DNA from: a virus
Direction: 5' to 3' (one strand)
Virus record (IMG/VR): IMGVR_UViG_3300044641_003548
Coordinates: 37,149-101,148 of that record
Length of the DNA: 64,000 bases
In this document: piece by piece, positions 28,569 to 60,408 of the stretch
Position numbering within the stretch: position 1 is the first letter of the stretch
How the letters are laid out: the number at the start of each line of letters is the position of its first letter
Position numbers and translations under genes: made by a program
Notes under the pieces: model-generated
What the model was told of the DNA's origin: nothing
What the model saw: the letters and a program-made list of their open reading frames with translations, nothing else
The model's database searches: none

Positions 28569-28793
28569 TTAATCTTTATCTGTCACAATTACTGCAACCT
28601 TATTTACCCAAACTATTCTACCATGGCAAGCAATATTCCATTTGGTTTCGCCATATTCATGTGTGCATTCGGTAAAAGTTTCTCCAATGATGCGAACATC
28701 TGTTGCCAAATGTTCTACACCATTTTCAAAAACACGCCAGACTAGTTCACTACCGTTATGTTTGGTATTAAATCTAACGTGGTATTTGTTCAT
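28569..28793 (-). CDS. Conserved small phage protein (74 aa)
   Basis: A 74-residue protein, MNKYHVRFNTKHNGSELVWR and then VFENGVEHLATDV, TKWNIACHGR. I recall this family in many T4-like phages. Small beta-sheet protein of unknown function. ATGA overlap with the next upstream gene. Confidence 0.7.
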   Translation of the reverse strand: MNKYHVRFNTKHNGSELVWRVFENGVEHLATDVRIIGETFTECTHEYGETKWNIACHGRIVWVNKVAVIVTDKD

Positions 28794-33303: not shown

Positions 33304-34503
33304 TTAGTATTTACTTTCTCTAGTGTGTTTGCGATAGTCTGTGTCCATACGCAACCATTGTCGTCCCTTACCCTCTAGAATATCACAGATTCTATCAATA
33401 GTACCGTCAGTCCAATCACTGATTTTACCTTGATTCATATGCGGCTGATGTAACATATTATACAACTTAATTGCCGCATCTTCAACAGACCAGGGCGCAT
33501 ACATTCTTGTATAATCATTCGCAAACGTTTCCGGGAAACTGCGATATGCTGGATACAATACATTACAACCCAAACTATCTGCTTCGCTGACTGTATTGCT
33601 TACCCAATCTTGTAACGCACAGTTAAACAATACTCTAGTATTATTTAACAATTCATAATATGCGTTCTTGTCCAAATCTTCATAAACTTTTAATAATCCA
33701 CGACCTTGAAAATCTCTTGTGCGTTGCATATAACTATCGTTATTGCTTTTTAATTTACTACCACTGAACACACAAAACTCTACACCACGATAAGTACCAT
33801 AACGATCCTTCTCACCATACCGATTAAAGAATTCTTCAATCACATCCATATAGAAGTCTGGTTGCTTTTCTTGATCCCATCTTGCACTAAATGCAATACG
33901 CATTGGTCGTTCATCAAAGGGTCTGATGACATTATCTACACGACTACGTACTTCTTCTTTACCAAATGCTAAACCACTGATATTGTAGATTGGCGCTTTC
34001 CAACCTGCAATCTTCATATGCATAACCATTTCTTCGTTTGAAGCAAGAACACCATCAGCAAAACTGTCTACCATCTTCTCATAATGACCCATGAACTCAC
34101 TCATGCCCCAGACATGAACAAAATCATCAGGATCAATACTTTGTGCTAAACAACGAACAAAAATCTTAGGACGACTTGTGATAGGAATCTGTTTCATAAT
34201 ATAGGGCAATGATTCAATGCCTGGCTGAAACATATCTTCAAAGTATACGATATCACCCGCACCCACATCACCTTGCTTCATCATACGTACAAGATTCATT
34301 AGTTGACTCATACCAAAGTATGTTCGACCGTGTGCGTCTAGTACCTGTCCTGTGACAATAGCCTGATCGTTGCTGAGTGTCTCGCCGGGTACAATAACAT
34401 AGTTAATACCTCTACGTTTAAAAACACGTTCATTCCACTCTTGTAATTGTAGTGTGTATCGTGCTTTATACGGTTCTAGCCCCATGTAATATAGTGTGTT
34501 CAT
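33304..34503 (-). CDS. Glycosyltransferase, GT-B type
   Basis: A 399-residue protein with GT-B layout: N-terminal region with DIVYFEDMFQPGIESL, and a C-terminal domain with RIAFSARWDQEKQPDFYMDV and later DWVSNTVSEADSLGCNVLYP, the donor-binding acidic region. Common in T4-like phages. It is coupled to a nucleotidyltransferase-cupin gene (ATGA), so both may act in one surface-sugar route. Acceptor unknown. Confidence 0.75.
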   Translation of the reverse strand: MNTLYYMGLEPYKARYTLQLQEWNERVFKRRGINYVIVPGETLSNDQAIVTGQVLDAHGRTYFGMSQLMNLVRMMKQGDVGAGDIVYFEDMFQPGIESLPYIMKQIPITSRPKIFVRCLAQSIDPDDFVHVWGMSEFMGHYEKMVDSFADGVLASNEEMVMHMKIAGWKAPIYNISGLAFGKEEVRSRVDNVIRPFDERPMRIAFSARWDQEKQPDFYMDVIEEFFNRYGEKDRYGTYRGVEFCVFSGSKLKSNNDSYMQRTRDFQGRGLLKVYEDLDKNAYYELLNNTRVLFNCALQDWVSNTVSEADSLGCNVLYPAYRSFPETFANDYTRMYAPWSVEDAAIKLYNMLHQPHMNQGKISDWTDGTIDRICDILEGKGRQWLRMDTDYRKHTRESKY

Positions 34504-35255
34504 TCTTTTCTTTCAATATCTTCTTCTACACAACGTGAGCCATATTGAATTTCTACAATACGACATACTTCACTGTATGGATTACTTAGCTGATGCCAGT
34601 CACCTACAGGAATTTTATATGAATTATGTTTTGTTAATATTTGTGTTGGAAGTGCGTAACCATTTGGCATCATAGAGTGAACATCACACTTACCTTCACT
34701 AACTAACCAATATTCGCTTCTGTTGGAATGTTTTTGCATACTCAATGATTTACCTGGATCAATAGTTAATTCTTTTACTTTACAACCCTCTACATCATGT
34801 AGTATACGATAATATCCCCATTGACGCAATGTTTTCGGTTGTTTCCATTCACGTAGTATCCAACTACTACTATTCATTTTGTTCTCGCCACCTACGCCAA
34901 AAACAAATTCAACATCATCAAATACCATTTCTGGAATATTATCTGATGTTCTATCACCACCGTTAGCAAAAATTATATGTGCTTCCGGATACATCATCTT
35001 TACGTTACGAATAGCTTCAATGCTAGATCCATCATTGTCATCATAGATAACACAATGATCTACCATTTTTAAATTCTCAATGATTGACATACGTTCAGTA
35101 ATAGGCATAAAAGGTTGGCCCTTTTTGCGAGCCAACCATGCATCACTGTTTATCCCGACAACTAATTTGTCGCCGAGTTTTCTTGCAGACTTGAAGTATT
35201 CAATATGACCGCTGTGTAATGGATCGAATCCACCGGTGACTAATACAATTTTCAT
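34500..35255 (-). CDS. HldE-type nucleotidyltransferase fused to a cupin
   Basis: A 251-residue fusion. Residues 1-130: RfaE/HldE-type adenylyl- or cytidylyltransferase with VTGGFDPLHSGHIEYFKSAR. Residues 140-245: cupin resembling type II mannose-6-phosphate isomerase (WGYYRILHDVEG, then SLSMQKHSNRSEYWLVSEG). I start at MKIVLVTGG because that ATG overlaps the preceding stop. Combines sugar-phosphate activation and isomerisation in one chain. Confidence 0.8.
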   Translation of the reverse strand: MKIVLVTGGFDPLHSGHIEYFKSARKLGDKLVVGINSDAWLARKKGQPFMPITERMSIIENLKMVDHCVIYDDNDGSSIEAIRNVKMMYPEAHIIFANGGDRTSDNIPEMVFDDVEFVFGVGGENKMNSSSWILREWKQPKTLRQWGYYRILHDVEGCKVKELTIDPGKSLSMQKHSNRSEYWLVSEGKCDVHSMMPNGYALPTQILTKHNSYKIPVGDWHQLSNPYSEVCRIVEIQYGSRCVEEDIERKE

Positions 35256-36211
35256 ATATTCTTTGTCCATTTAGATTGTTCTATTAGATAGTCTGCCCAT
35301 ACTCTATGACCTTCAATTGAAGGGTGATTGTTATGATACTTGTTTTTATGTATGAATGTCAAGGTTTTATCTATCTTAGATAGTTGATCGTTAGCCCAAT
35401 CTAAATCTAAGTAAACCGATCCGTCAATGAACAAACTAGATTTAGGGTCGACTGCCGTTGCATTAAGGATAACAAGTTCTTGATAATCGACACCCAATAA
35501 CATAGCTGAGTATGCGATCCAACTTGGTTTGATATGCTTAAACAAGTACTCTTTGTTAGAGTCAAACATGCAGAAATTAGACCAAACAATAGGATCAATG
35601 TTCAAGTTATAATATTTATCCAACGTAGTCTGATACCAATCTAACAATGTTTTATGATATAGTTTTACCCATTGCTCATATGATACAGGTTGATTAAAGT
35701 AATTTTTACCTAAGTATATTTTACTCAGCGGTGTACTATTAAAATAGGATCTACTTGTATATGCACCGTCTCTGTGAGATTCAGTTATCTGTAAAGATAG
35801 ATATATTTTTTCGTAACCCATAGATGCTACGTATTTTAATATATTATCTAAATCTACTAACATATTGACATTAGAATTGCCCGGTACTGCGTGTTGATAT
35901 AAATCACAGTCTAAAGTTTTAGCCATCTGTGTGCCAAAAGTATATAGCAACTGACTGCCAAAACTATAAATATCGCTACCAGTAGAGATACTATATGACC
36001 CGTCCAATGACGGCAGACGCTCACCATAAGTCCAACTCTCGCCTATATTAATAAACAGAGTCTTTTTTCCTCGCTTCAAATAGAAGCTAGCAAATTTAAC
36101 ATCATCTTTATGCGCCGGTGTAAAATCATTAAAGATGATACTTTGTGTATCAGCTAAAATTGAATTAGCCGGTAGTACAGGCCATTCGCTAACTGGTAGC
36201 TCTTGCATCAT
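35252..36211 (-). CDS. SGNH-like hydrolase 2
   Basis: A 319-residue protein with FINIGESWTYGERL (block I, Ser nucleophile in GES), VPGNSNVNML (block III Asn) and YHNNHPSIEGHRVWADYL (block V, His). It is longer than typical SGNH esterases and lacks a signal peptide, so it acts in the cytoplasm or on virions. Coupled to the HldE-cupin gene. Confidence 0.7.
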   Translation of the reverse strand: MMQELPVSEWPVLPANSILADTQSIIFNDFTPAHKDDVKFASFYLKRGKKTLFINIGESWTYGERLPSLDGSYSISTGSDIYSFGSQLLYTFGTQMAKTLDCDLYQHAVPGNSNVNMLVDLDNILKYVASMGYEKIYLSLQITESHRDGAYTSRSYFNSTPLSKIYLGKNYFNQPVSYEQWVKLYHKTLLDWYQTTLDKYYNLNIDPIVWSNFCMFDSNKEYLFKHIKPSWIAYSAMLLGVDYQELVILNATAVDPKSSLFIDGSVYLDLDWANDQLSKIDKTLTFIHKNKYHNNHPSIEGHRVWADYLIEQSKWTKNI

Positions 36212-41523: not shown

Positions 41524-44232
41524 TTAACCAAATGAGAATAAATCATCAAATGTCGATTTAACATCAATGTTACTCTTAATGTCCCAATTAAGAACACCAA
41601 GTAAGTTGTCAACCTTTTCATCCACTAGAGTAGATTCCATTGCACCATCATCAAATGGTAACTCTTTAAACCAAGTAGGCAATCGTAATTCATCAACCGG
41701 ATAAGCAATACTGTTGAAGCCTAATGGATTGGGTTTCAGTTTACAAACGATAATCTTCATACCATCAACAATTTGTTGACTGTAATTGTCACCGTTCATT
41801 CTGCGTAGATAGTTCCAGTTAATAGCGGCACGTGCATGACCAACACCACACTTGCCTGTCTTTTCAAACACTTGTGTATGCTTAGTCAAGTTGTTAACTG
41901 ATTTAGGTGAACCCTTAGTCCAACTGTCTTGTTCAACTAGTACACGCTTAAACTCTTTAACACGCTCAATGACTTCCTCACGATTTTTACCTCGTTGAAG
42001 AACCATCTCAAGCACATCCATTAAGAATTCTTGCACATACTTAGGGGTATCAGCACGTTTCAAGTCAAGACCCATAGCCTTGATATCACCTAATGCACCG
42101 TCTTTGTCTTTACGCTTGCCTTCTTTATCAAAGATGTTGATAGCATAACGCTTCTTAGTGATAAAGATACTACGATCACCAATCAATTCACGACCAGCTT
42201 TAATGATAGCACCATTCTTTCTTGGAGCATGAAATGCTTTCTCCATGAATGCTGGGAACGATTCATTAGCTTGGTCAGCAATGCCATCATATAATCCGAT
42301 ACAAGTTTCTTTGTCCCAAGTCAATTCACCGCTATCAATCTGAGGTTTAAGAGCAGGATATGCTGTGAAATAACATGAGTCAGTATCACCATATACGATT
42401 GCAGGACCTTCGTGATTGTAATCACCAGTCACAGATTCATTGATGGTACTCATCATGTGTCTAACAATTTGACGACCACTTAGTGTAACAGATTGACCGA
42501 TACGCTTATCATAGAACCGACAATGTTCATTCAATAGTGCACCATAAGCTGAGTTTAATAAAATCTTACGAACAAGCTGACGCTTATCGTAATATTCATA
42601 TTTGTCAGTTCCGTACGCTTCTTTAGCAAGTTTCTGTGTCTCTTTACGCTCTGAGTACCATCGACTGAGTAGACCAGGAACAACGCCTTCTTTTTCATAA
42701 GTAAAGATTGTACCATTAGCACTTAACATCCAGGGCTTATGACTATCAAAGACCATCTTCCATACTTCTGCGGCTGACATTTCTTCACTGCGACCATCTT
42801 CGTAATCTACAGTTAGCATTGTGCCACGCTCTTGGTTCATAATAGAAGTATATTCTAGTGAACCAAACAGGTTCTCCCATAATATAGCACCAGTCACATC
42901 TTCATCGCCTTCTTTGAAATATTTCTTTCCTTCAGCGAGATTGCGACCTTTTTCTTTCATGTAATGGTCAGTTAGTGTTTGTCTGACTTGTGCGACAATC
43001 GTTTCTCCACCCATGTTGACGGCACGAATAACCGAGGGATAGAGTGAGTTAATGTCGACGGCGCCGACCCATTCGTGCATTCCTCTTTTCGGCGTAGCAA
43101 CATAGGCACCTGCTGCCTGCTGGACTTCTTCTGCATTTTCAACCTTTCGTTTTTTATCTGGAACAACTAACCCACGTTCGTGAGCCTCATTAAAAATTGC
43201 CATCTCAATCATTGCAACTGAACCCATAACTGTTGGGAGCAGTACTGTGTTTTCATGTGCAAGTTGATTAGCTAATTCTAAAAACTTAAGTTTGTTGTGA
43301 ATCTTCACCAACAACATCGTATCTTGTCTGTTGTATTCAATGAACTTTTTAAAGTCTTTGTTATACAACTGGTCAAGAGTACCTTCATATTGCGTTTTGT
43401 TTTCACCGACCTCCATCTCACCGATAGAGTCAAGTTTATAACTGTGGCGTGATTCATAGTTATACTTTTTGTACAACTGTAAATAGTCCATGTGAATACG
43501 ACCTACTAAGTCATAAGTTGTTTCACTTTTACCGAATCGTTCGTATTCTCTAGGCTTGGGCAGTTGACCCATCAAGCAAAACTTGCGTGTGTCATCCTTA
43601 CTCATCACTCTAGTAACACGATTGACCATATAGGGAATATCATAGCCCTCTGAGTTCCAGCCAGTTAATACATCAGCATCTTCAATTAGTTGAAAGAAAA
43701 CATCAAACATTTCCTTTTCACCAGTGAATAGCATTGTGTTTTCAAATTCATTAACAATCTCTTGTGCTGTCTCTGGACTCATGTGTTTGGGCGCAACAAC
43801 AAGAGTAATGCATTGGTCAAGCCAATCTAAGTAACAACTGATAGCAGTTACAGGATTAAATGGGTCTGATGTTGGACTGAAACCTTTAACAGGATCAAAG
43901 TCCACCTCAATGTCAAAGAAACAAGTATGAAGTTTAGGAGCATCAACTTTAAGATAGTTCTCGCTTAGACAACGAAAGACTACATTGATATCAGATTCAA
44001 ACAATGTTTTACCTGAATGGATACGCTTTTCTTTTTCAAACTCTGTGCGTTTGCGTGTACTGAAACGACTAACTGGATTGCCATAGATACTACGATGCTT
44101 ACCCTTAGGATCAGGATAATACATTACATAGTTAGTAGGGTATTCTTTGTACTGGCGTTTGCCATTCTTATCCCGTTCTACTACATAGATACGGTCTTCG
44201 TCCCTACTGTGAATTGCATCAATGTATGACAT
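41524..44232 (-). CDS. Family B DNA polymerase, gp43-like
   Basis: A 902-residue replicative polymerase with proofreading exonuclease. Exonuclease motifs: CFFDIEVDFDP (Asp107, Glu109), GWNSEGYDIPYMVNR and EYNRQDTMLL. Polymerase motifs: VDINSLYPSVIR (A, about 394), KILLNSAYGALLN (B, about 560) and VYGDTDSCYF (C, about 615). Length equals T4 gp43. Starts overlapping the upstream SGNH gene by 14 bases. No inteins or breaks seen. Confidence 0.97.
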   Translation of the reverse strand: MSYIDAIHSRDEDRIYVVERDKNGKRQYKEYPTNYVMYYPDPKGKHRSIYGNPVSRFSTRKRTEFEKEKRIHSGKTLFESDINVVFRCLSENYLKVDAPKLHTCFFDIEVDFDPVKGFSPTSDPFNPVTAISCYLDWLDQCITLVVAPKHMSPETAQEIVNEFENTMLFTGEKEMFDVFFQLIEDADVLTGWNSEGYDIPYMVNRVTRVMSKDDTRKFCLMGQLPKPREYERFGKSETTYDLVGRIHMDYLQLYKKYNYESRHSYKLDSIGEMEVGENKTQYEGTLDQLYNKDFKKFIEYNRQDTMLLVKIHNKLKFLELANQLAHENTVLLPTVMGSVAMIEMAIFNEAHERGLVVPDKKRKVENAEEVQQAAGAYVATPKRGMHEWVGAVDINSLYPSVIRAVNMGGETIVAQVRQTLTDHYMKEKGRNLAEGKKYFKEGDEDVTGAILWENLFGSLEYTSIMNQERGTMLTVDYEDGRSEEMSAAEVWKMVFDSHKPWMLSANGTIFTYEKEGVVPGLLSRWYSERKETQKLAKEAYGTDKYEYYDKRQLVRKILLNSAYGALLNEHCRFYDKRIGQSVTLSGRQIVRHMMSTINESVTGDYNHEGPAIVYGDTDSCYFTAYPALKPQIDSGELTWDKETCIGLYDGIADQANESFPAFMEKAFHAPRKNGAIIKAGRELIGDRSIFITKKRYAINIFDKEGKRKDKDGALGDIKAMGLDLKRADTPKYVQEFLMDVLEMVLQRGKNREEVIERVKEFKRVLVEQDSWTKGSPKSVNNLTKHTQVFEKTGKCGVGHARAAINWNYLRRMNGDNYSQQIVDGMKIIVCKLKPNPLGFNSIAYPVDELRLPTWFKELPFDDGAMESTLVDEKVDNLLGVLNWDIKSNIDVKSTFDDLFSFG

Positions 44233-45116: not shown

Positions 45117-45145
45117 AGTATACATGGGTTATGTAGAGAAGTCAA
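45117..45145 (-). promoter_or_regulatory. Sigma70-like promoter
   Basis: TTGACT, 17 bases, TATACT on the minus strand, one mismatch in each box. Predicted start lies about 20 bases before the AAGGAG site of the 88-residue protein gene. Confidence 0.72.
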
Positions 45146-45738
45146 GTGTTTTTCTTTCCTTCTACAATCTTCTTGACCAAAGTATGAATACCCGGATTGA
45201 CTTTCAATACATGTGGCATCATCTCATTACGGATATAGTTGCGTGTGTATTTGGGATTTTTATTTGAGTTATCTTCACACCATTCAATATTGTGGCTCTC
45301 ACACCAATATACAAAATCTTGTTTTCGGGTAGTTAAAAACGGTCGCAATACATTACCACGTGTGAGCGGAATAACTTTGGGTGTGCCATGCAGTGCCGAC
45401 CAAATATATGTTTCAACACAATCATCCAAATGATGACAGGTAATGATTGGTCCATGTTTAGCAAAATATTGATAGCGTTCTTCTCTCCAGAATTCTTCTT
45501 GGCTCATTGATTTAGGTTTTTTACGATTTAATATACCCAAATACATTGGTAGATTTCTATCCTCACAGTATTTAGATACAAAGTCTAATGCTTTGTTACT
45601 ATGTTCAGTACCATGATGGAAGTATACACAAGACACATCATGCTTACGGCTTAGGAAGTCAACAACAGCGCAACTGTCCACGCCACCACTAAATGCTACG
45701 GTAACTTGTTTGGGTAATGGGACTGTTAACTTGATCAT
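45142..45738 (-). CDS. tilS: TilS-like PP-loop ATPase, single domain
   Basis: A 198-residue protein. It has the ATP pyrophosphatase loop VAFSGGVDSCAVVDFL, then IITCHHLDDCVETYIW and the TilS-type end CEDNSNKNPKYTRNYIRNEM. TilS changes the anticodon wobble cytidine of a minor tRNA-Ile to lysidine. The usual C-terminal domains are missing, which is also true of some archaeal-like or phage enzymes. Start lies six bases after TATAAT, hence probably leaderless. Confidence 0.8.
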   Translation of the reverse strand: MIKLTVPLPKQVTVAFSGGVDSCAVVDFLSRKHDVSCVYFHHGTEHSNKALDFVSKYCEDRNLPMYLGILNRKKPKSMSQEEFWREERYQYFAKHGPIITCHHLDDCVETYIWSALHGTPKVIPLTRGNVLRPFLTTRKQDFVYWCESHNIEWCEDNSNKNPKYTRNYIRNEMMPHVLKVNPGIHTLVKKIVEGKKNT

Positions 45739-46685: not shown

Positions 46686-47369
46686 TTACCAATCATTTGA
46701 TCTCTCATTTAATTCGTGTTTTTCAAAACGTGCTAATCTCTTTAAGAAATCATTAGTTTTTTCTGTGATAATACCGGTTAACTGATATGTAACTCTAGGA
46801 TTATGACCTGCATTAGCAGTAGAATGAGGGATATTTTGCCAATCAAATGTTGTTACATCACCTGCACGCCATTGTTGATGATTATAATTACCATAACTCC
46901 AGAAATGTCCTTGTTCCCAGTCAGTTAATGCTACTTGAATACGTATTACACGCCATGGCTCATTTGGTAACCATTTCTCTAATTTGTCTAAATGTAAGTT
47001 CCAAACTTCACCGGGCATCTGTACGTGAATACGTTCCATGCAATCATCTAGTCCAAACAAGTCACTAATCTTTTTTAGATTAGGAGTTATTTCCCAATTC
47101 AAGTGCGTGATTTGATAATCTTTGCCGTAACCGAATCGTTCTAAATCATAGTCCTCTGCGGCTAATTCTTCTTCAGGTCTAGTTTTACCTACAGCACCAC
47201 GTGTACGCCATGTTGCTGGTTTAGCTGTCTTTACTGCATGTTTAACATCTTCTGTATAGTCTGCTAAAATCTTACCAATCTTAATTACTTTATCAACTTG
47301 TGAATCGTTTTTAAAGTTATCAAAATGATAATTACTACGTTTTTTACTTTGTTCCCAACTACTTATCAT
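46686..47369 (-). CDS. 2OG-Fe(II) oxygenase-like protein
   Basis: A 227-residue protein. HVQMPGEVWNLHLDKLEKWL contains the HxD iron pair, and DWQNIPHSTANAGHNPRV holds the distal His and the arginine that binds 2-oxoglutarate. This arrangement resembles aspartyl/prolyl hydroxylase-type cupins found in cyanophages. Target may be protein or nucleotide. Coupled by ATGA to the upstream gene. Confidence 0.75.
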   Translation of the reverse strand: MISSWEQSKKRSNYHFDNFKNDSQVDKVIKIGKILADYTEDVKHAVKTAKPATWRTRGAVGKTRPEEELAAEDYDLERFGYGKDYQITHLNWEITPNLKKISDLFGLDDCMERIHVQMPGEVWNLHLDKLEKWLPNEPWRVIRIQVALTDWEQGHFWSYGNYNHQQWRAGDVTTFDWQNIPHSTANAGHNPRVTYQLTGIITEKTNDFLKRLARFEKHELNERSNDW

Positions 47370-47986
47370 ATTACTGTTACCCTTACATCTGATGCCCCGT
47401 AGCTTTGTTCATACTCGCTCGGTGGTAGTTCTATATTTAGCATCTTACATAGCATGTGATTAGTTAATGGGAGTTTGCTAGGATACTTATATGTTGCTTT
47501 AATGATACCTTGATTCTGTTCTTTAATCTTAGTAGCCATTACTTTTAAGTTCTGATAGTATTCACTATAGTCAGGGTATGTAATGTCAAAGTGACCACAT
47601 TTAACCCACCATCCTAAACAAGCATCATCAGGACGATGTACTAAAATGATAGGACAATCAGGCCATGTTTCTTTTATGAAATCAATGTGATTACTAAACA
47701 CGTGACTTTTAACGATACGAACTCCTTCACCAGTGAACGCTTCATCAAAGTCACGTTCTAATGTTTCTTTGTCATACATAGGTAGACGATGGAACAGTTT
47801 ACCAAACTCCATACCAGGATCATAGTATGCGCCCAAATGCATTAGTTCATTTTTACCAGATGCATCATGGTAGTATGTTCTACTATCACTGTAATCAGAT
47901 TGGTCTACGTTAGGACTATAGTAAATGTTCTTTACTACGCTACTCCACTTACTACCGGGGGCACCTGCTACAAAGATATATTTCAT
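47366..47986 (-). CDS. Sulfotransferase-like P-loop protein
   Basis: A 206-residue protein: FVAGAPGSKWSSVVKNIYY (nucleotide loop), RIVKSHVFSNHIDFIKE (common sulfotransferase strand) and IILVHRPDDACLGWWVKCG (binding of the 3'-phosphate). The pattern is known from cyanophages. Third sulfotransferase-like gene here. Substrate unknown. Confidence 0.65.
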   Translation of the reverse strand: MKYIFVAGAPGSKWSSVVKNIYYSPNVDQSDYSDSRTYYHDASGKNELMHLGAYYDPGMEFGKLFHRLPMYDKETLERDFDEAFTGEGVRIVKSHVFSNHIDFIKETWPDCPIILVHRPDDACLGWWVKCGHFDITYPDYSEYYQNLKVMATKIKEQNQGIIKATYKYPSKLPLTNHMLCKMLNIELPPSEYEQSYGASDVRVTVI

Positions 47987-48945
47987 TTTTTACTTAATTG
48001 TGTTATGATAGGTTTAAAATTCTTTCTTAATGTTTCAGCATATGCTTTAACACCGTCTGTATTTAATTGCTTTTCGTCAATCAAAATATAATTATTGTAA
48101 GCCCACTCTTTATACTCGTCACTTTTTATTGCTTTGCTAAACTCAATTTGATACCAGATTAATATCTCCGTAGGTGTTTCAGGAGGCAAACTCACCATCC
48201 AACCAGCATAAACACTAATGCCCGGGATACTATCTTCAAGTAAAGGGGCACCTGCAATTTTTCCAGGAACCTTATCTCCAGTAAGACCTACCAATTTTAC
48301 TTTTCCTGCGTCAATTAATGGTCTTGCTATAGCTATTGGCATAATACCAAATTCTACTTCTTTATCGCCGGCTACAGCAGTAACTGCTTGTTGAGGTCCA
48401 CCATATCTTACAGCACGAATTTTGTCTTTGTCACCTTTTGTTTTTAGCATGATGTATTCGTATGCCATTTGATGTGCTCCACCACCTACAGCAATGTTTA
48501 TATTTCTATGGCTAGATTGAACTGTTGCTAAGAATTGTTGTGGCGTGTCAACTAGGCTTGATTTATTAGCTACTAATGCTAATGGACTTTGTCCAAGCGT
48601 TACCACATTATTAAAAGAATTATATTGAAACTTTTTTACATCCTGTTGCCAAATGTCATTAGTTATAAATAAACTCATATGACTAGGAACGCTGATTGTC
48701 AATCCATTTTTCTCTGCGTTAAATAATAAGTTCTGTGAAACTACAGCATCAGCACCGGGCTTGTTTTCAATTATGAAATTTGTGCCAGGGTTGTTTTTCT
48801 CCACGATACTTGATGCTTTTCTAAATGAGATTTCATTACCTGATCCGGGTGCAAAACCTACTAATACTTTGACTGGTTTCGTCGGTTGCCATGCAAATGC
48901 TGACAACGTGAATAATGCGAATAATGTTACTAATATTTTTTTCAT
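47983..48945 (-). CDS. TctC/Bug-family periplasmic solute receptor
   Basis: A 320-residue tripartite tricarboxylate transporter receptor. It has a signal peptide (MKKILVTLFALFTLSAFA), then WQPTKPVKVLVGFAPGSGNE, the family's start, and AVGGGAHQMAYEYIM, ligand pocket, and later PLLEDSIPGISVYAGWM. Bug receptors bind carboxylates such as citrate or aromatic acids. They are hugely expanded in Burkholderiales. A phage-borne copy suggests support of host carbon uptake. GGAGG ribosome binding site. Confidence 0.9.
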   Translation of the reverse strand: MKKILVTLFALFTLSAFAWQPTKPVKVLVGFAPGSGNEISFRKASSIVEKNNPGTNFIIENKPGADAVVSQNLLFNAEKNGLTISVPSHMSLFITNDIWQQDVKKFQYNSFNNVVTLGQSPLALVANKSSLVDTPQQFLATVQSSHRNINIAVGGGAHQMAYEYIMLKTKGDKDKIRAVRYGGPQQAVTAVAGDKEVEFGIMPIAIARPLIDAGKVKLVGLTGDKVPGKIAGAPLLEDSIPGISVYAGWMVSLPPETPTEILIWYQIEFSKAIKSDEYKEWAYNNYILIDEKQLNTDGVKAYAETLRKNFKPIITQLSKK

Positions 48946-48957
48946 CTTTCCTCCAAG

Positions 48958-48965
48958 AATAAATA
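48958..48965 (+). promoter_or_regulatory. Late-promoter-like octamer, plus strand
   Basis: AATAAATA, about 39 bases before the methyltransferase gene. One mismatch from consensus. The divergent receptor gene starts a few bases to the left. Confidence 0.4.
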
Positions 48966-49004
48966 TGATGTGACTATTATTTAGTCCATTTTATAAAAAA
49001 TCAT

Positions 49005-49733
49005 ATGAATACTAAAATTTTTAATCTTTTACAAGAAAATTTACAACTTGCGTTTAATTTACCCAAGTATTCCAAAATTTCTATAACTGAACAAACTATT
49101 GTACAAGACTTACCTTGGACACCCGCACGATATAGTAAATTTAAGGATGCAGTAGAAGCTGAACTACAACTACCCTGTGATTATGTGGGTTCACTGAAAG
49201 ATATTGTCAGTGACTTATCAGAACGATATATCCTAAGATTTTTTAGTGAGATTTGGAAGCCAAGAACAGGAGACTATGAGCATACTGGTTGGGAACTTGC
49301 TGATGAAGTTAATAAACTAAACCCAGAGAAAGTACTTGATGTTGGTTGTGGATATCATCCGTTCAAGGGCCGCATTCAGAATCTGATTGGTATTGATCCA
49401 TACAACAATCAAGCTGACTATGAAGTTGATATCTTAGAGTATAAAGTTAAACCAAAATCATATGATGTAATACTAGCACTTGGATCAATTAACTTTAACA
49501 GTAAGGATGAGATTGAAGTACGATTTGAACATTGTGTCAATCTATTGAAAAAGGGTGGGAAATTCTATTTAAGAGCTAATCCAGGTATTCCGCACAAGAC
49601 AGGGCCTTATGTTGATATATTCCCTTGGAGTTTTGAAGTTGTAAATGAGTTTGCTGAGAAGTACAATCTAAAGTTAGATGCCTTTAAGAAAGATGCCAAC
49701 GATAGATTATACTTTGTTTACACTAAGAATTAA
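49005..49733 (+). CDS. SAM-dependent methyltransferase
   Basis: A 242-residue class I methyltransferase: VLDVGCGYHPFKGRIQNLIG for SAM binding, YDVILALGSINFNSKDE (motif IV region) and LLKKGGKFYLRANPG. The N-terminal 85 residues are extra. Target cannot be told; small molecule, lipid or sugar methylation are all possible. Its stop shares TTAA with the opposing nuclease gene. Confidence 0.8.
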   Translation: MNTKIFNLLQENLQLAFNLPKYSKISITEQTIVQDLPWTPARYSKFKDAVEAELQLPCDYVGSLKDIVSDLSERYILRFFSEIWKPRTGDYEHTGWELADEVNKLNPEKVLDVGCGYHPFKGRIQNLIGIDPYNNQADYEVDILEYKVKPKSYDVILALGSINFNSKDEIEVRFEHCVNLLKKGGKFYLRANPGIPHKTGPYVDIFPWSFEVVNEFAEKYNLKLDAFKKDANDRLYFVYTKN

Positions 49734-50164
49734 CACCAAGATTGCTTGGCTTCACCAAAGTACTCACGGGCAAAGCCATTAGCAATCAGTTGTTGGCGTA
49801 GACTTTTACCGTCTAATATAATGTCACCTAGAACACGGCCGCCAAACTTATCCCAGTCATATAATATCACTTGACGCTTTTGACTACTACCTACTAGTTT
49901 TTTAGTAAACTCACTAGCGGCTAAGCCTCGTTGATTTTCTGATTCGCACTTAGCTCTGAAGCCTTTTTCAGGGGTATCAACACCAAATATACGAACAGCT
50001 AACTGCGGCTTTAGTGGCGCTGGTAAGAATGGTGCGGCAATAACTATGGTATCACCGTCACTTACTTTTAAAATGTTTGCATCATATGTTACCCCTTGTG
50101 GAGTTTTCTGTGCAAATACACTAACGGATAGTGTTAATAATAATGTTGTTATAATTTTTTTCAT
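49730..50164 (-). CDS. Exported thermonuclease-like nuclease
   Basis: A 144-residue staphylococcal-nuclease-type protein. It has a signal peptide (MKKIITTLLLTLSVSVFA), VSDGDTIVIAAPF, AVRIFGVDTPEKG with the catalytic Arg and Glu, and DKFGGRVLGDIIL with the second Arg. Expected to act in the periplasm, cutting foreign DNA or nucleic acid from lysed cells. Two cysteines (CESENQ, SWC) might pair. Confidence 0.88.
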   Translation of the reverse strand: MKKIITTLLLTLSVSVFAQKTPQGVTYDANILKVSDGDTIVIAAPFLPAPLKPQLAVRIFGVDTPEKGFRAKCESENQRGLAASEFTKKLVGSSQKRQVILYDWDKFGGRVLGDIILDGKSLRQQLIANGFAREYFGEAKQSWC

Positions 50165-50170
50165 GTTATA

Positions 50171-50611
50171 TTACTCACGTTCTGTTTTAAGAATAGAACG
50201 AATAAACCATGCTTTCTTGCCATACAAGTCTTGTAGTTCAGCCATATAGTTTTCTATACCATGTTGATTTTCATTGGCGGCCTCATCAAACATTGCTGTT
50301 ACTAATTGAAGCATTGTTTCACAATCTTGTAGCGACTCAGCAAACATCAATTCAGCACGTGGAATTTTAGTTTGGTCTTGAATGATACTTAACTCAGCAT
50401 AGCGAGTTAAACTACCAGGAGTATAATGACCTAAGATTCTAATATATTCGGCGATTGGATCAATAGTGTCACTTACATCTTCATACAATTTGTTAAAAAA
50501 TTTGTGATATTCTGGAAATTTACTACCTTCAACATTCCAGTGAAAATTCTGTGACTTGATAGCAAAACTTTGGGTGCTTGCTAATAATATTTTTAAGTTA
50601 TCTGATAACAT
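50171..50611 (-). CDS. dps: Dps/ferritin-like protein
   Basis: A 146-residue Dps-type ferritin fold protein: KSQNFHWNVEGSKFPEYHKF, FFNKLYEDVSDTIDPIAEYI. The His, Asp and Glu set at the dimer ferroxidase centre are visible in these segments. It would bind iron and protect DNA from oxidative damage. TAATG coupling with the micro-ORF ahead of it. Confidence 0.85.
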   Translation of the reverse strand: MLSDNLKILLASTQSFAIKSQNFHWNVEGSKFPEYHKFFNKLYEDVSDTIDPIAEYIRILGHYTPGSLTRYAELSIIQDQTKIPRAELMFAESLQDCETMLQLVTAMFDEAANENQHGIENYMAELQDLYGKKAWFIRSILKTERE

Positions 50612-53587: not shown

Positions 53588-54382
53588 TTATCGTTGCATT
53601 AATGATGCAATAATGTTGTCAATAAAATCAACCTGTAGAAAATCAGTTGTCAAAAAATCAACATCTAAAACTGATATAATTGCGCCTGTCGTTGCATTAG
53701 GAAGCGAACCTGTCTCCCACATAACTGATGGGTATGCATTACCGCCCGTTAACGGAGTTGTCATCGTTGTCCCCTGATTTATATTAAGCCAACCGCCCGG
53801 GGCATACAAAGTAACTATATTATTATTATTAGCTATTAAAAATTCAGGTTTAACTGTAGAAGTAATGATGCCGTAATATGTAGGATCCATCGACAAAACT
53901 GTAGGTTGACCTGTATTTGCGCCCAACACATTTAGAAATTCTTTAATAGTTGACCACCTGGTAAGTTCTGGAGAAGGTCCGGGTTGATTCAATCCAGAAT
54001 TTTCACCTAGCATGAACATAGAACCACCACCTTGAAGAAATGTAGTTAATTTACTAGTAGGATCCGTCAATGGATTAATGCTATATGGACTCACATAACC
54101 TATATCCCATACATGAGAATAGATACTCATGTCTGCTGGTAGATTGTCATATCCAACAATTAGTTCCGGCTCATATCCGGCAGCTATTTCTCTACTTTGT
54201 ATATTAGGATAAATTGCTGTTGCGGGATCTGGTGTACCGTACTCGGGATTATAAAAATCATTGTATACACCCCCTCCGGAATACACATAGGTAGTTGGAT
54301 CATAGAACACTAATACTTTAGTTTTTGTGATCCGACTTGGGGGTCTAAACCAAAATCCTAATCTACTCCCACCAAAGTTCAT
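53588..54382 (-). CDS. Tail-fibre-associated protein, amidotransferase-like fold
   Basis: A 264-residue protein coupled to the fibre gene by ATGA. TTFLQGGGSMFMLGENSGLN and STIKEFLNVLGANTG resemble the nucleophile-strand region of glutamine-amidotransferase or ThuA-like folds, but the nucleophile Cys is absent. Aromatic, Gly/Asn/Thr rich surface fits a virion protein. It may be a fibre tip, adhesin or chaperone. Confidence 0.6.
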   Translation of the reverse strand: MNFGGSRLGFWFRPPSRITKTKVLVFYDPTTYVYSGGGVYNDFYNPEYGTPDPATAIYPNIQSREIAAGYEPELIVGYDNLPADMSIYSHVWDIGYVSPYSINPLTDPTSKLTTFLQGGGSMFMLGENSGLNQPGPSPELTRWSTIKEFLNVLGANTGQPTVLSMDPTYYGIITSTVKPEFLIANNNNIVTLYAPGGWLNINQGTTMTTPLTGGNAYPSVMWETGSLPNATTGAIISVLDVDFLTTDFLQVDFIDNIIASLMQR

Positions 54383-57300
54383 GCCGCATATCCTGTTGTT
54401 AATGTAGCATAATATGTGCCGCCAATATTGACCATGTTAACCATGTCTACAGCGCCAGCTGTTGTACTTAGAGCTTTATAACCAGAAGCCCAAAGAACAG
54501 TACTACCATAAGTAGCAAGATACGGGGCTCCTACACCCTGTGTTATTATCAATGTAATACTCTGTCCTGATGCAACTGATGATATGTTAAAGAATGTATT
54601 AGCTGTCATTGTACATGTTTGAATAGTACCGTTGTTAATATTAATTGTAGTAGTGCCTGAAACATTACCCAAGTCGTAAATAGTATCACCTGCACTAGAG
54701 CCTGGAATAGTAACAGTAGCTATACCTGATCCCGGCGCTACTGTAGCCGTAACACCTAGACCAACAAAGTTAAGAGCACCAATTGAACTAACAAAAGGAA
54801 CACCCTCGTCATATACAGTAATACCACCATTTATTGTGATTGTTGCAACACCACCTACATTACTTGCTTCAACACCTGCACCTACAAAATTAAACGTATT
54901 AGTTGAACCAACTACAACGTTACCTTCATCTTGTATAATAACTCCGGGTATACCTGCAATATTAATTGTAGCAACACCACCTACATCACTTGCTGTAACA
55001 CTAGGGCCAACAAAGTTCAGTGTAGTAGCATTAGCTAATACGTTAGAACCTTCGTCTTGTACAGTAATACCAGTAATTTCATTGTAATAACTTATACCTC
55101 CACCTACTACGGCTGCATATCCATCTACTGCGGTAGTCCATGTCATTGTCAATGTGTTAGCATTTACAAAATTAATTGTTGGGAAATCATATCTTCCATT
55201 ATAAGAATTATTATTAGCATCAACTGGTTCTACTACAACATATGTTCTATTAAGATTGTGAGTTACTGTCCAAACATTACTTGCAACTGATTGTGTATGT
55301 AGATAATAACCTCCTGGAGTATTAGCTGTCCCGTCACTCCAACTTAAATTACCAGTACCGTCCGTAGTCAATACTTGTCCAGGTCCACCACCTGTAATAG
55401 TAACATTAGCATTTGAACCCAAGTTAGCTGTACTTGTAACTACAAAATTATTAACAGTTAATAATGTTAATGTCTCATCAAATGTGAATGTCGCATCACC
55501 ACCAAATGAACCATCATCATTGTATTGAACTTGTGTATTTGTACCGCCGGCTTCAAATGTAATTGTTGCCCAACCTAAATTACCTGCTCCGTCAATCGTA
55601 GCAATAACATCAAACGGATTACCACCGGTAATATATACGTTACCTAAGTCACCTAACTCAGTAATAGAAGTTACTGTTAAGTTATTTGCTGTAACTAATG
55701 TTAATCCCTCGTCAAATGTCAATGCTGGGTGACCACCTAATACGCCGTCATCGTTATACTGAATTTGAGTATTAGCACCACCTGCCTTGATGTTGCCAAC
55801 GTCACCTGCGGCTAAGTTAGCCCAACTTAGCGTGCCTGTACCATCGGTAGTTAATATATAATTAGCATTACCACCACCAATATATACATTACCAACATCA
55901 CCTAAGTTAGCTGTACTTGTTGCCGCAAAATTATTTGCTGTAACTAGTTGTAATCCTTCATCAAATGTAAATGCTGGGTGACCACCTATTATGCCATCAT
56001 CGTTATATTGAACTTGAGTATTTGCACCACCTGCTTTAATGCCAATTGTAGTTGCTGATAAATTAGCCCAACTTAGGTCACCAGATCCATCAGTGACTAA
56101 TACATAATTTGCACCGCCACCTGAAATGTGAATATTACCAACATTACCTAAACTAACGTTTGATGCTGATATAAAGTTAGCAGTAGTCGTAACAGCTAGA
56201 TTATTGGTTGTGAGTAAAGTATTTGAACTATTAAAAGTAAATCCAGCACTTGCACCAAAATTACCTGCATCATTGAATTGAACTTGTGTATTTGCTCCAG
56301 CTGGTATTCCATTACCTGCATTTCCGCCTGTTTGTGCTGTCCAAGTTAAATTACCTGCTCCGTCAGTTTGTAGAACATAACCATTAGTACCACCGGTAAT
56401 TGTAACATTACTAACTGCACCCAAGTTAGCTGTGCTAGTTGCTACAAAGTTATTAGCAGTAATTAATGATAATCCCTCATCAAATGTAAATGCTGGGTTA
56501 CCACCTAATATGCCATCATCATTATATTGAACTTGTGTATTTGCACCACCTGCCGCAATATTACCAGCACCGCCGCCGGCTAAGTTAGCCCAGGATAAGT
56601 TACCTGTACCATCAGTAGTCAATATGAAATTAGCGTTACCACCTGCGATATGTACATTACCAACATTACCTAAACTAACATTTGATGCTGTTGTAAAATT
56701 AACAGTACTATTACCAATAATATTATTTGCTGTAAACGTAGTAGTTGTTTTGTCGAATGTAAAACCAGCAACAGCACCAAAGTTACCTGCGTCATTAAAT
56801 TGAATTTGAGTGTTGGCACCTGCAACTTGTCCGTTACCCGGTAAGCCAATTGGAACACCCCATACTAAGTTACCTGTTCCGTCTGTCTGTAAGAAGTATC
56901 CGTTAATACCACCATCGATATGAACATTGCCAACGTTACCTAAACGAGTAATAGAGCTTACTGTTAAGTTATTAGCAGTAATTAATGATAATCCCTCATC
57001 AAATGTAAATGCTGGGTTACCACCTAATATGCCATCATCATTATATTGAACTTGAGTATTTGCGCCACCTGCGGCTACATTGGCAATACTATTACCACTA
57101 GTCCAACTTAAGTTGCCTGTACCGTCAGTTGTCAATACAAAATTAGCTGTGCCACCGTCAATGTGAACATTGCCAACGTTACCTAAACGAGTAATAGAAC
57201 TTACTGTTAGGTTATTAGCAGTAATTAAAGTAGTGCCTTCATCAAATGTAAACGCCGGGTTACCACCTAGTATACCATCATCGTTGTATTGAACTTGTGT

Positions 57301-60300
57301 ATTTGCACCACCGGCTGCAATATTGCTGGTTGCTGATAGATTAGACCAAGTTAGTGTGCCGGTACCGTCAGTTGTCAACACATAGTTAGCAGTACCACCA
57401 CCAATATATACATTACCAACATCACCTAAGTTAGCTGTGCTTGAAGCAACAATGTTGTTTGCTGTTAATGTAGTAGATGTTTTGTTGAATGTAAATCCAG
57501 CAACTGCACCAAAGTTTCCTTCGTCATTGAATTGAACTTGAGTGTTAGCACCAGCAACACTACCATTACCTGTGCTGTTACTTCCAGGAGCCCATGTTAA
57601 GTTACCTGAACCATCAGTTTGTAGATAGTAACCATTAGTACCACCTAAGATAGTTACATTAGATACTGAATTTAAATTAGATTTGCTACTTACAGTTAAG
57701 TTATTAGCAGTAATTAATGATAATCCTTCATTAAATGTAAATCCTGGATTTCCACCTAATATGCCATCATCATTATATTGAACTTGTGTGTTTGCACCGC
57801 CGGCAGCAAGGTTACTTGTAGCAGATAAGTTAGACCAGCTTAATGTACCTGTGCCGTCAGTTGTCAATACATAATTAGCTGTGCCACCTAGAATTGTAAC
57901 ATTAGCAACATCACCTAAGTTAGCTGTGCTTGTAGCAACAAAATTGTTAGCTGTTACTGTAGTATTAGATTCATCAAATGTGAATCCTGGATTTCCACCA
58001 AATATATCATTATCATTATATTGTACTTGACCATTTGCGCCACCTGGTGATCCGTTTCCACCTGCACCTGGAATAGTAATAGTAGCAACACCACCTACGT
58101 TACTTGCAACCACGCCTGCACCCACAAAGTTCATTATACTTGCTGATGTTAAAACATTGGCTCCTTCATCTCGCACAGAAAGTCCAGCTCCTGCATTACT
58201 CCAAGTTAAATTACCATTACCATTAGTAGTCAACACTTGACCTATAGTACCACCAGTAATAGTAATATTTGATACACTGTTTAAATTAGACCTGCCTCTG
58301 ACCAATAGACTACCGACATTTGCTGTACCAGAGTTACTTGTCCAACTGGGGATTCCAGGTAAAGTAAAATTACCATTATAATCTAGGTTTAATAAAGGAG
58401 TCCAACCGTTTTCATTTCCTGTAGTAGGTGATGTATTTGCAATACTGTCAATTATACTAAAACCAAATGCGGTTACAGGTACATTACCTGCGCCTGGTCC
58501 TATTGAACCATCTGCTATAATAAGTGCTTGATTGAAATTTCGTTCTTCATTTGTTAACGCTAAATATGCCGGGCCAGATCCTGTGTTTTGATATGTAAAT
58601 CCATAACCTGTGTTTATATTAGCATTTTGAACATTTCCTGGAAACATTCGTAAACGACCCCAAGCATCAGACACATTAGAAAAACCTTGATCGTATCCAA
58701 AATGTAGTTCTGAGTTTGCAGTAATATTACCAGGAGCTCTTAACCAACCAGTAGTTGAATCAAATGTAAAGCCTGAACTTGCACCAAAGTTTCCATTATT
58801 GTTATATTGTACTTGTGTATTAGAACCGGCTGGAGTACCATTAGCACCACTACCTCCACCAGCACTCCAACTTAAGTTACCAGCCCCGTCAGTTGTCAAT
58901 ACATAATTAGCAGTACCACCGGTAATATGTAGATTAGCTACGGCACCCAATGATACATTTCCACCATATAAACTAATGTTAGAAGGAACACGAACACCTG
59001 CAGTTGCTATCAAATCTAAATTAGTGCCTGAGGTAACTGTTGGTGTGTTTGAACCTGAACCAATAAAGTTAACAGCAAGAACATTACTACCAACAGTTAA
59101 ATTGCTAGTTGTTTTATCAAATGTTAAGTTAGAACTTGCACCAAAGTTACCACCATCATTAAATTGTAATTGTGTATTAGAGCCAGAAACTGCACCGCCA
59201 CCGGTAATTGTAATAGTAGCAACGTTACCTACATTACTTGCTGTAACACCTGAACCGACAAAGTTGATTGTATTTGCTGTGGCTAGTACATTAGTACCTT
59301 CTTCTTGAACCGCAATGCCACCAATACCACCGGCAATTGTAATAGTAGCAACGTTACCCACGTTGCTTGCAGTAACACCATTACCAACAAAGTTGATTGT
59401 ATTTGCTGTTGCTAGTACATTAGTACCTTCTTCTTGTACAGTGACACCACGAGCACGTGCTACCCAACTTAAGTTACCAGCACCATCAGTTGTCAATACA
59501 TAATTAGCAGTACCGCCACCTATAGTTATATTACCTACATTACCCAACAATACATCTGGATTATTTGTAGCAAAATCTACAACACCACCATTACTAGTAA
59601 ATGAGTTAGCGAATATAACGTTAGCACCTGTTAAATTGCCGCCTATAGCATTACCAACTACAATATTACCCGGCACACTTAATTCACCAATTGTTGAATC
59701 AAATGTAAAACCACTGTTTCCTCCAAAATTACCACTATTGTTGTATTGAATTTGAGTGTTACTACCACCCGGTACGCCATTACCACTACTGTTACCGCCG
59801 GGAATATTAATATAGGCAGTGTTACTACCAGTGACTGTAACTCCATCACCAGTAAATATTAGTTGTTGTACAGCATTAGATATTAAATTATTTCCATCAT
59901 ATATTCCAACGTTAGATAGGAATGTATTGTAAACATTGGTAACGTTAATAATGTTACCTTCATCAACCGGAAGTGCTTCATTTGTTACTAATGTATTTAA
60001 GAATCCATCAGGACCAACCACTGTATTAGCTGGGGTAGGTACAGTGAACTCAATTTGAGGTACTGGTTCAGGAATTTCATCATTAGGAACTACAAGATTT
60101 GCAGGATCTGGGAATACGGGTCCTGGAGGAAGAGGATTAGTACCTGTTCCCGGTCCCGGTACGATAGGGGGTGTTGGGCTAGATGCAGTAGTAGTAAGTA
60201 CAGGGCTTGTCGTAACTGTTCTTCTTACCTCTGGAGTAACCGATGACGTACTATTAGTTTGAATTTGATTTACTGATGGTCTAATAGAGGCTACTGCCGA

Positions 60301-60408
60301 AGTAACAGATGATGTACTATTAGTTTGAATTTGATTGACTGTTGTTGGTCCGGTAGATGTTACTGTCGGAGTAACATTTGAAGTAGTATAACTATTTGCG
60401 ATTGGCAT
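54379..60408 (-). CDS. Giant repetitive tail fibre (2009 aa)
   Basis: A 2009-residue fibre. A Ser/Thr/Pro-rich N-terminus precedes about fourteen repeats of roughly 70-110 residues. Each carries NTQVQYNDDGILGGNPAFTF-like strands, then GNVHIxGG and YVLTTDGTGNLSW. A second repeat type, VQEEGTNVLATANTINFVG followed by NVATITI, occurs at least six times. C-terminal block ends YYATLTTGYAA. Such fibres bind host receptors; modularity allows host-range change. DNA repeats follow the protein repeats. AATAAATA lies upstream. Confidence 0.85.
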   Translation of the reverse strand: MPIANSYTTSNVTPTVTSTGPTTVNQIQTNSTSSVTSAVASIRPSVNQIQTNSTSSVTPEVRRTVTTSPVLTTTASSPTPPIVPGPGTGTNPLPPGPVFPDPANLVVPNDEIPEPVPQIEFTVPTPANTVVGPDGFLNTLVTNEALPVDEGNIINVTNVYNTFLSNVGIYDGNNLISNAVQQLIFTGDGVTVTGSNTAYINIPGGNSSGNGVPGGSNTQIQYNNSGNFGGNSGFTFDSTIGELSVPGNIVVGNAIGGNLTGANVIFANSFTSNGGVVDFATNNPDVLLGNVGNITIGGGTANYVLTTDGAGNLSWVARARGVTVQEEGTNVLATANTINFVGNGVTASNVGNVATITIAGGIGGIAVQEEGTNVLATANTINFVGSGVTASNVGNVATITITGGGAVSGSNTQLQFNDGGNFGASSNLTFDKTTSNLTVGSNVLAVNFIGSGSNTPTVTSGTNLDLIATAGVRVPSNISLYGGNVSLGAVANLHITGGTANYVLTTDGAGNLSWSAGGGSGANGTPAGSNTQVQYNNNGNFGASSGFTFDSTTGWLRAPGNITANSELHFGYDQGFSNVSDAWGRLRMFPGNVQNANINTGYGFTYQNTGSGPAYLALTNEERNFNQALIIADGSIGPGAGNVPVTAFGFSIIDSIANTSPTTGNENGWTPLLNLDYNGNFTLPGIPSWTSNSGTANVGSLLVRGRSNLNSVSNITITGGTIGQVLTTNGNGNLTWSNAGAGLSVRDEGANVLTSASIMNFVGAGVVASNVGGVATITIPGAGGNGSPGGANGQVQYNDNDIFGGNPGFTFDESNTTVTANNFVATSTANLGDVANVTILGGTANYVLTTDGTGTLSWSNLSATSNLAAGGANTQVQYNDDGILGGNPGFTFNEGLSLITANNLTVSSKSNLNSVSNVTILGGTNGYYLQTDGSGNLTWAPGSNSTGNGSVAGANTQVQFNDEGNFGAVAGFTFNKTSTTLTANNIVASSTANLGDVGNVYIGGGTANYVLTTDGTGTLTWSNLSATSNIAAGGANTQVQYNDDGILGGNPAFTFDEGTTLITANNLTVSSITRLGNVGNVHIDGGTANFVLTTDGTGNLSWTSGNSIANVAAGGANTQVQYNDDGILGGNPAFTFDEGLSLITANNLTVSSITRLGNVGNVHIDGGINGYFLQTDGTGNLVWGVPIGLPGNGQVAGANTQIQFNDAGNFGAVAGFTFDKTTTTFTANNIIGNSTVNFTTASNVSLGNVGNVHIAGGNANFILTTDGTGNLSWANLAGGGAGNIAAGGANTQVQYNDDGILGGNPAFTFDEGLSLITANNFVATSTANLGAVSNVTITGGTNGYVLQTDGAGNLTWTAQTGGNAGNGIPAGANTQVQFNDAGNFGASAGFTFNSSNTLLTTNNLAVTTTANFISASNVSLGNVGNIHISGGGANYVLVTDGSGDLSWANLSATTIGIKAGGANTQVQYNDDGIIGGHPAFTFDEGLQLVTANNFAATSTANLGDVGNVYIGGGNANYILTTDGTGTLSWANLAAGDVGNIKAGGANTQIQYNDDGVLGGHPALTFDEGLTLVTANNLTVTSITELGDLGNVYITGGNPFDVIATIDGAGNLGWATITFEAGGTNTQVQYNDDGSFGGDATFTFDETLTLLTVNNFVVTSTANLGSNANVTITGGGPGQVLTTDGTGNLSWSDGTANTPGGYYLHTQSVASNVWTVTHNLNRTYVVVEPVDANNNSYNGRYDFPTINFVNANTLTMTWTTAVDGYAAVVGGGISYYNEITGITVQDEGSNVLANATTLNFVGPSVTASDVGGVATINIAGIPGVIIQDEGNVVVGSTNTFNFVGAGVEASNVGGVATITINGGITVYDEGVPFVSSIGALNFVGLGVTATVAPGSGIATVTIPGSSAGDTIYDLGNVSGTTTININNGTIQTCTMTANTFFNISSVASGQSITLIITQGVGAPYLATYGSTVLWASGYKALSTTAGAVDMVNMVNIGGTYYATLTTGYAA
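55300..59850 (-). repeat. Tandem repeats in the tail fibre gene
   Basis: Recurring DNA blocks within the fibre gene encode NTQVQYNDDG, GGNPAFTFDEG and VLTTDGTGNLSW. Unit length varies from about 210 to 330 bases. Copies near 56460-57300 are the most alike, suggesting recent expansion or gene conversion. Boundaries approximate. Confidence 0.7.

Follow-up and report, generated by a model that had tools for sequence, protein, structure and literature searches.

The receptor gene and its product

The stretch of DNA analyzed here (the window, 64,000 nucleotides) comprises bases 37149-101148 of a 101,148-base IMG/VR virus record. On its minus strand, an ORF with an ATG start occupies exactly positions 47983-48945 and encodes a 320-aa TctC-like solute-binding protein that is predicted to be exported. 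A GGAGGA sequence resembling a ribosome-binding site is present on the same strand at 48949-48954, and a 59-base region (48946-49004) separates the gene from a divergent gene for a methyltransferase-like protein. A sigma-70 promoter scan upstream of the receptor gene did no better than scans of shuffled sequences, a T4-like late motif (TATAAATA) was not general (6 of 83 upstream regions), and a search for repeats near the gene found nothing convincing.

The receptor gene is located within a phage genome. The window also encodes PolB (41524-44232; phrog_262, 658 bits), a phage ligase and an exonuclease, and the closest DNA polymerases from isolates are those of jumbo myoviruses (Phosso, Atu_ph07, and RaK2-like; 44-50% identity), in agreement with the viral origin assumed in the original prediction. 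Elsewhere in the window, nucleotidyltransferase-like and cysteine-dioxygenase-like parts (PHROGs) are fused in one gene (34500-35270), and a 2009-aa ORF with many similar repeats (54379-60408) probably encodes a fiber-type structural protein.

Both sequence family and fold place the 320-aa protein in the TctC superfamily. It scores 52 bits against Pfam TctC (PF03401), above the curated cut-off of 27, and a sequence search of the PDB returned TctC/Bug proteins only, with TphC (7ndr) at the top at 8e-13, and at 3e-35 when the receptor family profile (A1) was used instead. An AF2 model built from 42 alignment rows (pLDDT 92.5, pTM 0.88) has the two-domain type II receptor fold. When this model was searched with Foldseek, rows 1-17 were all TctC/Bug chains and TphC ranked first, while VIA-align placed Bug27 (2qpq) at the top (Z 35.8, rmsd 2.0, 290 residues) and gave TphC a Z of 32.2; 11 TctC/Bug entries had Z scores of 30.7-35.8, compared with 16.9 for the next fold. 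Like the TctC/Bug receptors Bug27, TphC, AdpC, MatC, and BugD, the phage protein has the Pfam family, the full-length fold and the signal peptide pattern, and it shares with them the core residues G64, A65, G81, E163, G183, and A187. The TctC/Bug receptor ORF originally called at this position is real, with position, Pfam score and fold in agreement.

The N-terminus suggests export to the periplasm. Residues 1-18 (48892-48945, minus strand) have the pattern of a signal peptide, with K2K3, a hydrophobic run, and A-F-A preceding W19. A16 and A18 are invariant across 42 alignment rows, and the -1 residue is A in all 94 core genes (those of the receptor's own clade, described below) that have a recognizable mature W[QED]P start, genes lacking such a start having been left out of the count. 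The protein had been described as full-length with a signal peptide and ligand-pocket segments; the full fold held up, the signal peptide is a prediction from the sequence pattern, and the pocket segments are present in altered form.

Phylogenetic position and ligand pocket

Searches of IMG/VR recovered 61 relatives of the receptor from the single sequence and 292 from a profile, on contigs of up to 524 kb. The same kind of pattern scan over 84,980 bacterial and archaeal species genomes gave 75 stretches and 0 relatives, tblastn found no match to the receptor in 50,697 isolate phage records, and a plasmid tblastn returned 212 records, all below 60% identity. With the family profile, all 30 viral records searched had a top match of 380 bits or more, compared with a maximum of 154 bits in eight TctC-rich bacterial genomes and of 164 bits in 399 Burkholderiales and 398 Pseudomonadota genomes, a bacterial search that scored, for each genome, the five candidates ranked highest at first look and that may have missed a relative. 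A tree was built from 84 rows (44 bacterial, 20 core, and 20 other phage TctC), and in it the core phage TctC proteins formed one clade with support of 100/99, recovered in 200 of 200 trees of a bootstrap that had not settled; the core rows were 20 of 105, thinned at 65% identity. Of 62 viral rows, 56 were long enough and 42 were distinct, short and duplicate proteins having been dropped.

The receptor is a member of a phage-only clade, not a recently borrowed host gene. Because the family has long been resident in phages, the donor host is not readable from the phylogeny, and inference of a host from the receptor was rejected, given the 0 relatives in the genome scan and the gap between the best bacterial and viral profile scores. 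The original suggestion that the gene offers a clue to the host and marks its donor is not supported, on the same results. Bacterial contamination of viral bins is unlikely for the core clade, given that all 30 records match, that 13 of the 30 carry a T4-like Gp23 on the same contig, and that PolB is syntenic. The case is less sure for record G017, where no Gp23 match was found and TctA is 50% identical to an Agrobacterium TctA. No report of a phage TctC receptor was found in the literature by a search that was weak on subscription papers and preprints, and five BFVD/UniProt models of uncultured Caudovirales are labeled "PBP2_Bug_TTT" or "Bordetella uptake protein." Such receptors had been called rarely described in phages, which stands for the literature as searched and for isolate genomes, but not for uncultured phages with their 292 IMG/VR relatives.

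Fifteen of the 30 viral records encode two to four TctC-like genes (profile, E <= 0.001). Up to four paralogues per phage record, some within 9 kb, are seen in L006, L028, L036, and records G001 and G019. Other TctC paralogues adjoin ATP-pyrophosphatase-like, glutamine-amidotransferase-like and ferritin-like proteins (weak or partial matches), the first of these being what we take them to be from a motif. One phage record encodes a DctP-type (TRAP) solute-binding protein without an evident signal peptide (L170:3946-4911, 161 bits), adjoining two TctC paralogues and ATP-pyrophosphatase-like genes.

The phage receptor differs from TctC/Bug receptors in its pocket as well as in its phylogeny. The beta1-alpha1 pocket motif (residues 30-38; 48832-48858, minus strand) reads G-F-A-P-G-S-G-N-E, compared with the canonical Bug signature P-F-x-A-G-G-x-x-D (PMC8556258, PMC5812351), which a review, in its available part, describes as almost ubiquitous but not universal. 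Because the canonical signature is changed in this way, we file the phage receptor as a distinct phage subfamily of the TctC superfamily. The comparison covered 105 core rows, 44 bacterial rows and 20 rows of other phage TctC. All 105 core rows have E at position 38, where 43/44 bacterial rows have D, and the loop preceding E163 is two residues shorter in the core, with 15 residues in 101/105 core rows versus 17 in 40/44 bacterial rows. Core TctC also has P184 and P203 as fixed residues, and the docking F of the signature is replaced by N in 80 of the 105 core members. Mapped by eye on the profile alignment, the TphC distal-carboxylate side chain Q150 falls on G154 of the receptor, T155 in a gap, N197 on P203, and T242 on A247.

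The core clade is under purifying selection, with a median dN/dS of 0.10 and a maximum of 0.145 (21 of 63 tested pairs, dS <2). With fixed residues peculiar to the clade and a dN/dS near 0.1, the pocket looks remodeled rather than decayed, and decay of the receptor was rejected on these grounds. A phage-only clade with lost ligand residues had been set in advance against the original reading of the gene; the tree recovers a phage-only clade, while the ligand residues are altered and in that sense alone lost.

The enzyme cassette around the receptor

The receptor had originally been treated alone, a view that missed its membership of a conserved cassette. In this cassette, a divergent gene for a methyltransferase-like protein (MT) is followed by TctC, a sulfotransferase-like protein (ST), and a 2OG-oxygenase-fold protein (OX). 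MT (49005-49733, plus strand) is SAM-methyltransferase-like by weak, sub-cut-off matches to Pfam Methyltransf_25/23/11. Four bases are shared by the end of TctC and the start of ST (47366-47986, minus strand), and four more by ST and OX (46686-47369, minus strand). ST is a P-loop protein whose weak Pfam Sulfotransfer_3 score of 18.4 bits falls short of the curated family cut-off (27); "sulfotransferase-like" is a tentative working name. ST and OX profiles gave no usable match to PDB sequences, and a search of 398 Pseudomonadota genomes at 1e-8 returned no ST homologue, in a run that had no positive control. Among isolate-type records, ST matches only a marine single-cell virus. Weak, sub-cut-off matches of the ST7 family to toxin B-subunit models (16.7 bits, cut-off 175) were taken as chance.

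The motif of 2OG-Fe(II) oxygenases is H-x-D...H...R. In OX, H126-x-D128, H182, and R192 are invariant in 25 rows (alignment A2), and the best match of its AF2 model (pLDDT 92.4) is a proline cis-4-hydroxylase by Foldseek (1.3e-5) and a proline 3-hydroxylase by VIA-align (Z 11.7). OX has the 2OG-Fe(II) oxygenase motif and, as modeled, the double-stranded beta-helix fold, with proline hydroxylases nearest.

ORF clustering found MT, ST, and OX in 121, 115, and 92 of 138 TctC-anchored loci, respectively. Among the 155 TctC genes of these loci, 93 have a divergent MT at -1 and 93 have ST at +1, and the order MT (divergent), TctC, ST, OX recurs in several unrelated flanks. Because these counts were biased by anchoring on TctC, ST- and OX-anchored scans were run, using the best 80 of 585 ST relatives and the best 80 of 283 OX relatives, ranked by likeness to the window proteins and found with profiles built from the TctC-anchored loci. 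Core TctC was present in 52 of 59 ST-anchored loci with enough upstream sequence, another TctC in five, and none in two. When ST was thinned at 90% identity (n = 35), core TctC was present in 31 loci and a pair of TctA and another TctC in three, of which L282 has the pair immediately downstream of ST; one locus had none, so that 34 of 35 had a TctC. The 49 OX-anchored loci were similarly divided into 41 with core TctC, six with another TctC, and two with none.

Distance correlations were highest for MT-ST (rho 0.57), lower for TctC-ST (0.27), and lowest for TctC-MT (0.04, with 104 of 500 permutations as high). The receptor is exchanged in its slot more freely than MT or ST, which suits a specificity part and argues against tight co-evolution. 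MT, ST, and OX occur without TctC in L355, a locus of the same lineage as the window (PolB 81%); the cassette enzymes are therefore not strictly dependent on the receptor.

Several other genes lie near the cassette. A gene with a tRNA-lysidine synthetase N-domain (45142-45738; TilS_N 115.8 bits, cut-off 93.6) adjoins it and is conserved in 22 loci; no tRNA genes were found in the window. A secreted-looking SNase-family nuclease (49730-50164) and a ferritin/Dps-like protein (50171-50611) are encoded beside it. About 18 kb away is a homologue of kin6 (28790-29584, minus strand; 543 bits to the kin6 HMM), a kinase/nucleotidyltransferase found with the cassette in 39 of the 138 clustered loci and having an APS-kinase-like N part and an NMN-adenylyltransferase-like C part (weak matches). 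Also among the cassette members is the glutamine-amidotransferase-like GAT family (L072:7448-7999 and relatives), for which the best NCBIfam match, at 63.6 bits and below the cut-off of 250, is gamma-glutamyl-CDP-amidate hydrolase; GAT was not found in the window's 101-kb record. GAT and kin6 might together provide a phosphoramidate route like that of Campylobacter, a parallel that we in part presume and offer as a lead only.

The C part of kin6 also bears on another explanation, namely that the phage protein is a nicotinate- or quinolinate-type receptor feeding phage NAD synthesis, as proposed for Bug27 and Bug69. The window holds a kin6 homologue, and the top VIA-align Z belongs to Bug27, a quinolinate binder in vitro whose quinolinate contact residues, like those of Bug69, are known (PMC11452294, in the portion available). 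However, Bug27 was solved in an open state, which may alone explain its rank; the Foldseek leader is TphC; kin6 also matches APS kinase; and OX, ST, and MT have no evident role in NAD synthesis. We regard a link to NAD as very improbable.

Permease genes in the receptor slot and the proposed role in uptake

The 101-kb record from which the window comes is classed as linear and may be a fragment; no TctA or TctB gene was found in it. Among 30 large viral records, TctA occurs in three and TctB in one. Across 279 viral loci, a count that includes L169, L170, L172, and L175-L178, which were fetched on TctC/TctA matches, TctA occurs in 16, on 13 contigs. On 11 of these 13 contigs it is part of the ST/OX cassette or adjacent to it, and at most one gene separates it from a second type of TctC. 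The slot swap is clearest in L349, which has the same lineage and gene order as the window (identities: PolB 82%, f15 78%, f12 74%, OX 67%, MT 61%, TilS 59%, and ST 53%); the place between MT and ST that TctC takes in the window is filled there by TctA (311 bits), a gene of 185 aa, and a TctC of 351 aa. In L058, TctA, another TctC, core TctC, and ST form a single tight run. The cassette TctAs are 39-87% identical to one another and 22-25% identical to an Agrobacterium TctA; they are therefore a phage family too. Two TctA carriers, G002 and G030, also have a T4-like capsid gene. The uptake role originally proposed for the receptor is likely, given these relatives with phage-encoded TctA, with organic acids, the cargo proposed for it, as a candidate only. 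Within the fetched stretches, TctA is present in only 1 of 234 core-TctC loci, and given this count, the core-type receptor may rely on the host or have some other function.

We lean, by a small measure, toward the view that a receptor for tripartite-tricarboxylate-type (TTT) uptake has been made the phages' own and that what it brings in probably goes to the cassette enzymes and not to general host nutrition. The receptor would be exported to the periplasm, where an anionic small molecule, probably carboxylated, would be caught in the pocket remodeled in the phage lineage. It would then be passed to a TctA-type permease and transported inward. This permease would be host TctAB where the phage, as far as seen, is without TctA, as in the window, and phage TctA elsewhere. 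The imported compound would most likely serve cytoplasmic OX, ST, and MT of the same cassette. Weighing against this view are the rarity of TctA near core TctC, the changed Bug signature and TphC distal-carboxylate positions, the loose coupling of TctC distances to those of MT and ST, the L355 cassette that has no TctC, and the sub-cut-off matches behind the ST and MT names. Feeding of the cassette enzymes is probable by analogy, because bacterial orphan receptors sit with ligand-using genes, as TphC does (PMC8556258, available part). According to the same text, tphC of the Comamonas tph operon lies beside terephthalate dioxygenase genes, with a divergent regulator. The phage arrangement resembles that operon, as described there, in having an orphan receptor next to enzymes (those of TphC use its ligand), a permease elsewhere, and a divergent gene in front. 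It differs in that the phage enzymes have the look of tailoring enzymes and not of catabolic ones, and in that the divergent gene encodes a methyltransferase, not a regulator. Most bacterial TctC receptors are orphans (PMC5812351, available part).

Among phage genes, the closest precedent is pstS, found in cyanophages as well as other phages and likewise coding for a single periplasmic receptor that, in the present reading, works with a host permease; rare phages carry a whole pstS-type transporter (PMC10987575, available part). Such single receptor genes are the classic case of phages helping themselves through the host membrane. By this model, the TctC-like receptor could serve general nutrient scavenging, raising dicarboxylate-type carbon uptake during infection, with its neighbors unrelated passengers of the same expression unit. 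Cyanophage pstS as a single receptor gene relying on the host permease (PMC10987575), the mostly dicarboxylate ligands of bacterial TTT receptors (PMC5812351), both as given in the available text, and the exchange of TctC independently of MT all suit this explanation, whereas the recurrence of the four-gene order in several unrelated flanks, the 4-base gene overlaps, and the TctA plus TctC pairs that keep to the same slot do not. We consider scavenging unlikely on balance, while giving it more weight than any other alternative to feeding of the cassette. The phage TctC also differs from pstS in its transporter class, in a ligand that by family is not phosphate, in its link to the OX/ST/MT cassette, and in its paralogues within one phage.

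Transport itself might not be the function. An exported protein of this kind could block or retune host TTT or sensor proteins, buffer a signal, or exclude competing phages, as might be suggested by the near absence of TctA beside core TctC, by pocket residues that are changed and fixed, and by the presence of up to four paralogues per phage. On the other hand, TctA adjoins TctC in the same cassette of other phages, once with core TctC; the two-domain fold is intact; and selection is strongly purifying, not diversifying. We judge a non-transport role improbable.

A wider proposal can be made, which we put forward tentatively and consider less likely than not. Large freshwater-type phages may carry a transferable import-and-tailor pathway of their own, in which a phage-evolved TTT receptor (at times with a phage-evolved TctA) would import a building block. 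This would then be converted by a 2OG-hydroxylase, a methyltransferase, and a group transferase of the PAPS or phosphoramidate type, supplied with a nucleotide donor made by the phage, into a small molecule or modification of importance to infection. What is new relative to pstS is a phage-only receptor family with a consistently changed pocket, occupying one slot in a recurring enzyme cassette. This offers a handle on the joint role of sulfotransferase-like, 2OG-oxygenase and methyltransferase genes in large phages, and on whether orphan TctC receptors share a permease; the identity of the ligand would point to the pathway.

The only viral TTT gene found reported, in a literature search weak on subscription papers and preprints, is a tctA-like gene on a SUP05 viral contig, described as a "protein domain hit only" (PMC4164917; listed in PMC6359870). 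It is also a TTT component on a virus, but, in the available parts of these sources, a permease alone in a single report, without a receptor or cassette. Among the viral loci examined here, one from record G017, for which Gp23 gave no match, has a gene with a strong tryptophan-halogenase match (L175:5100-6677; PF04820, 285 bits) just before TctB-TctA.
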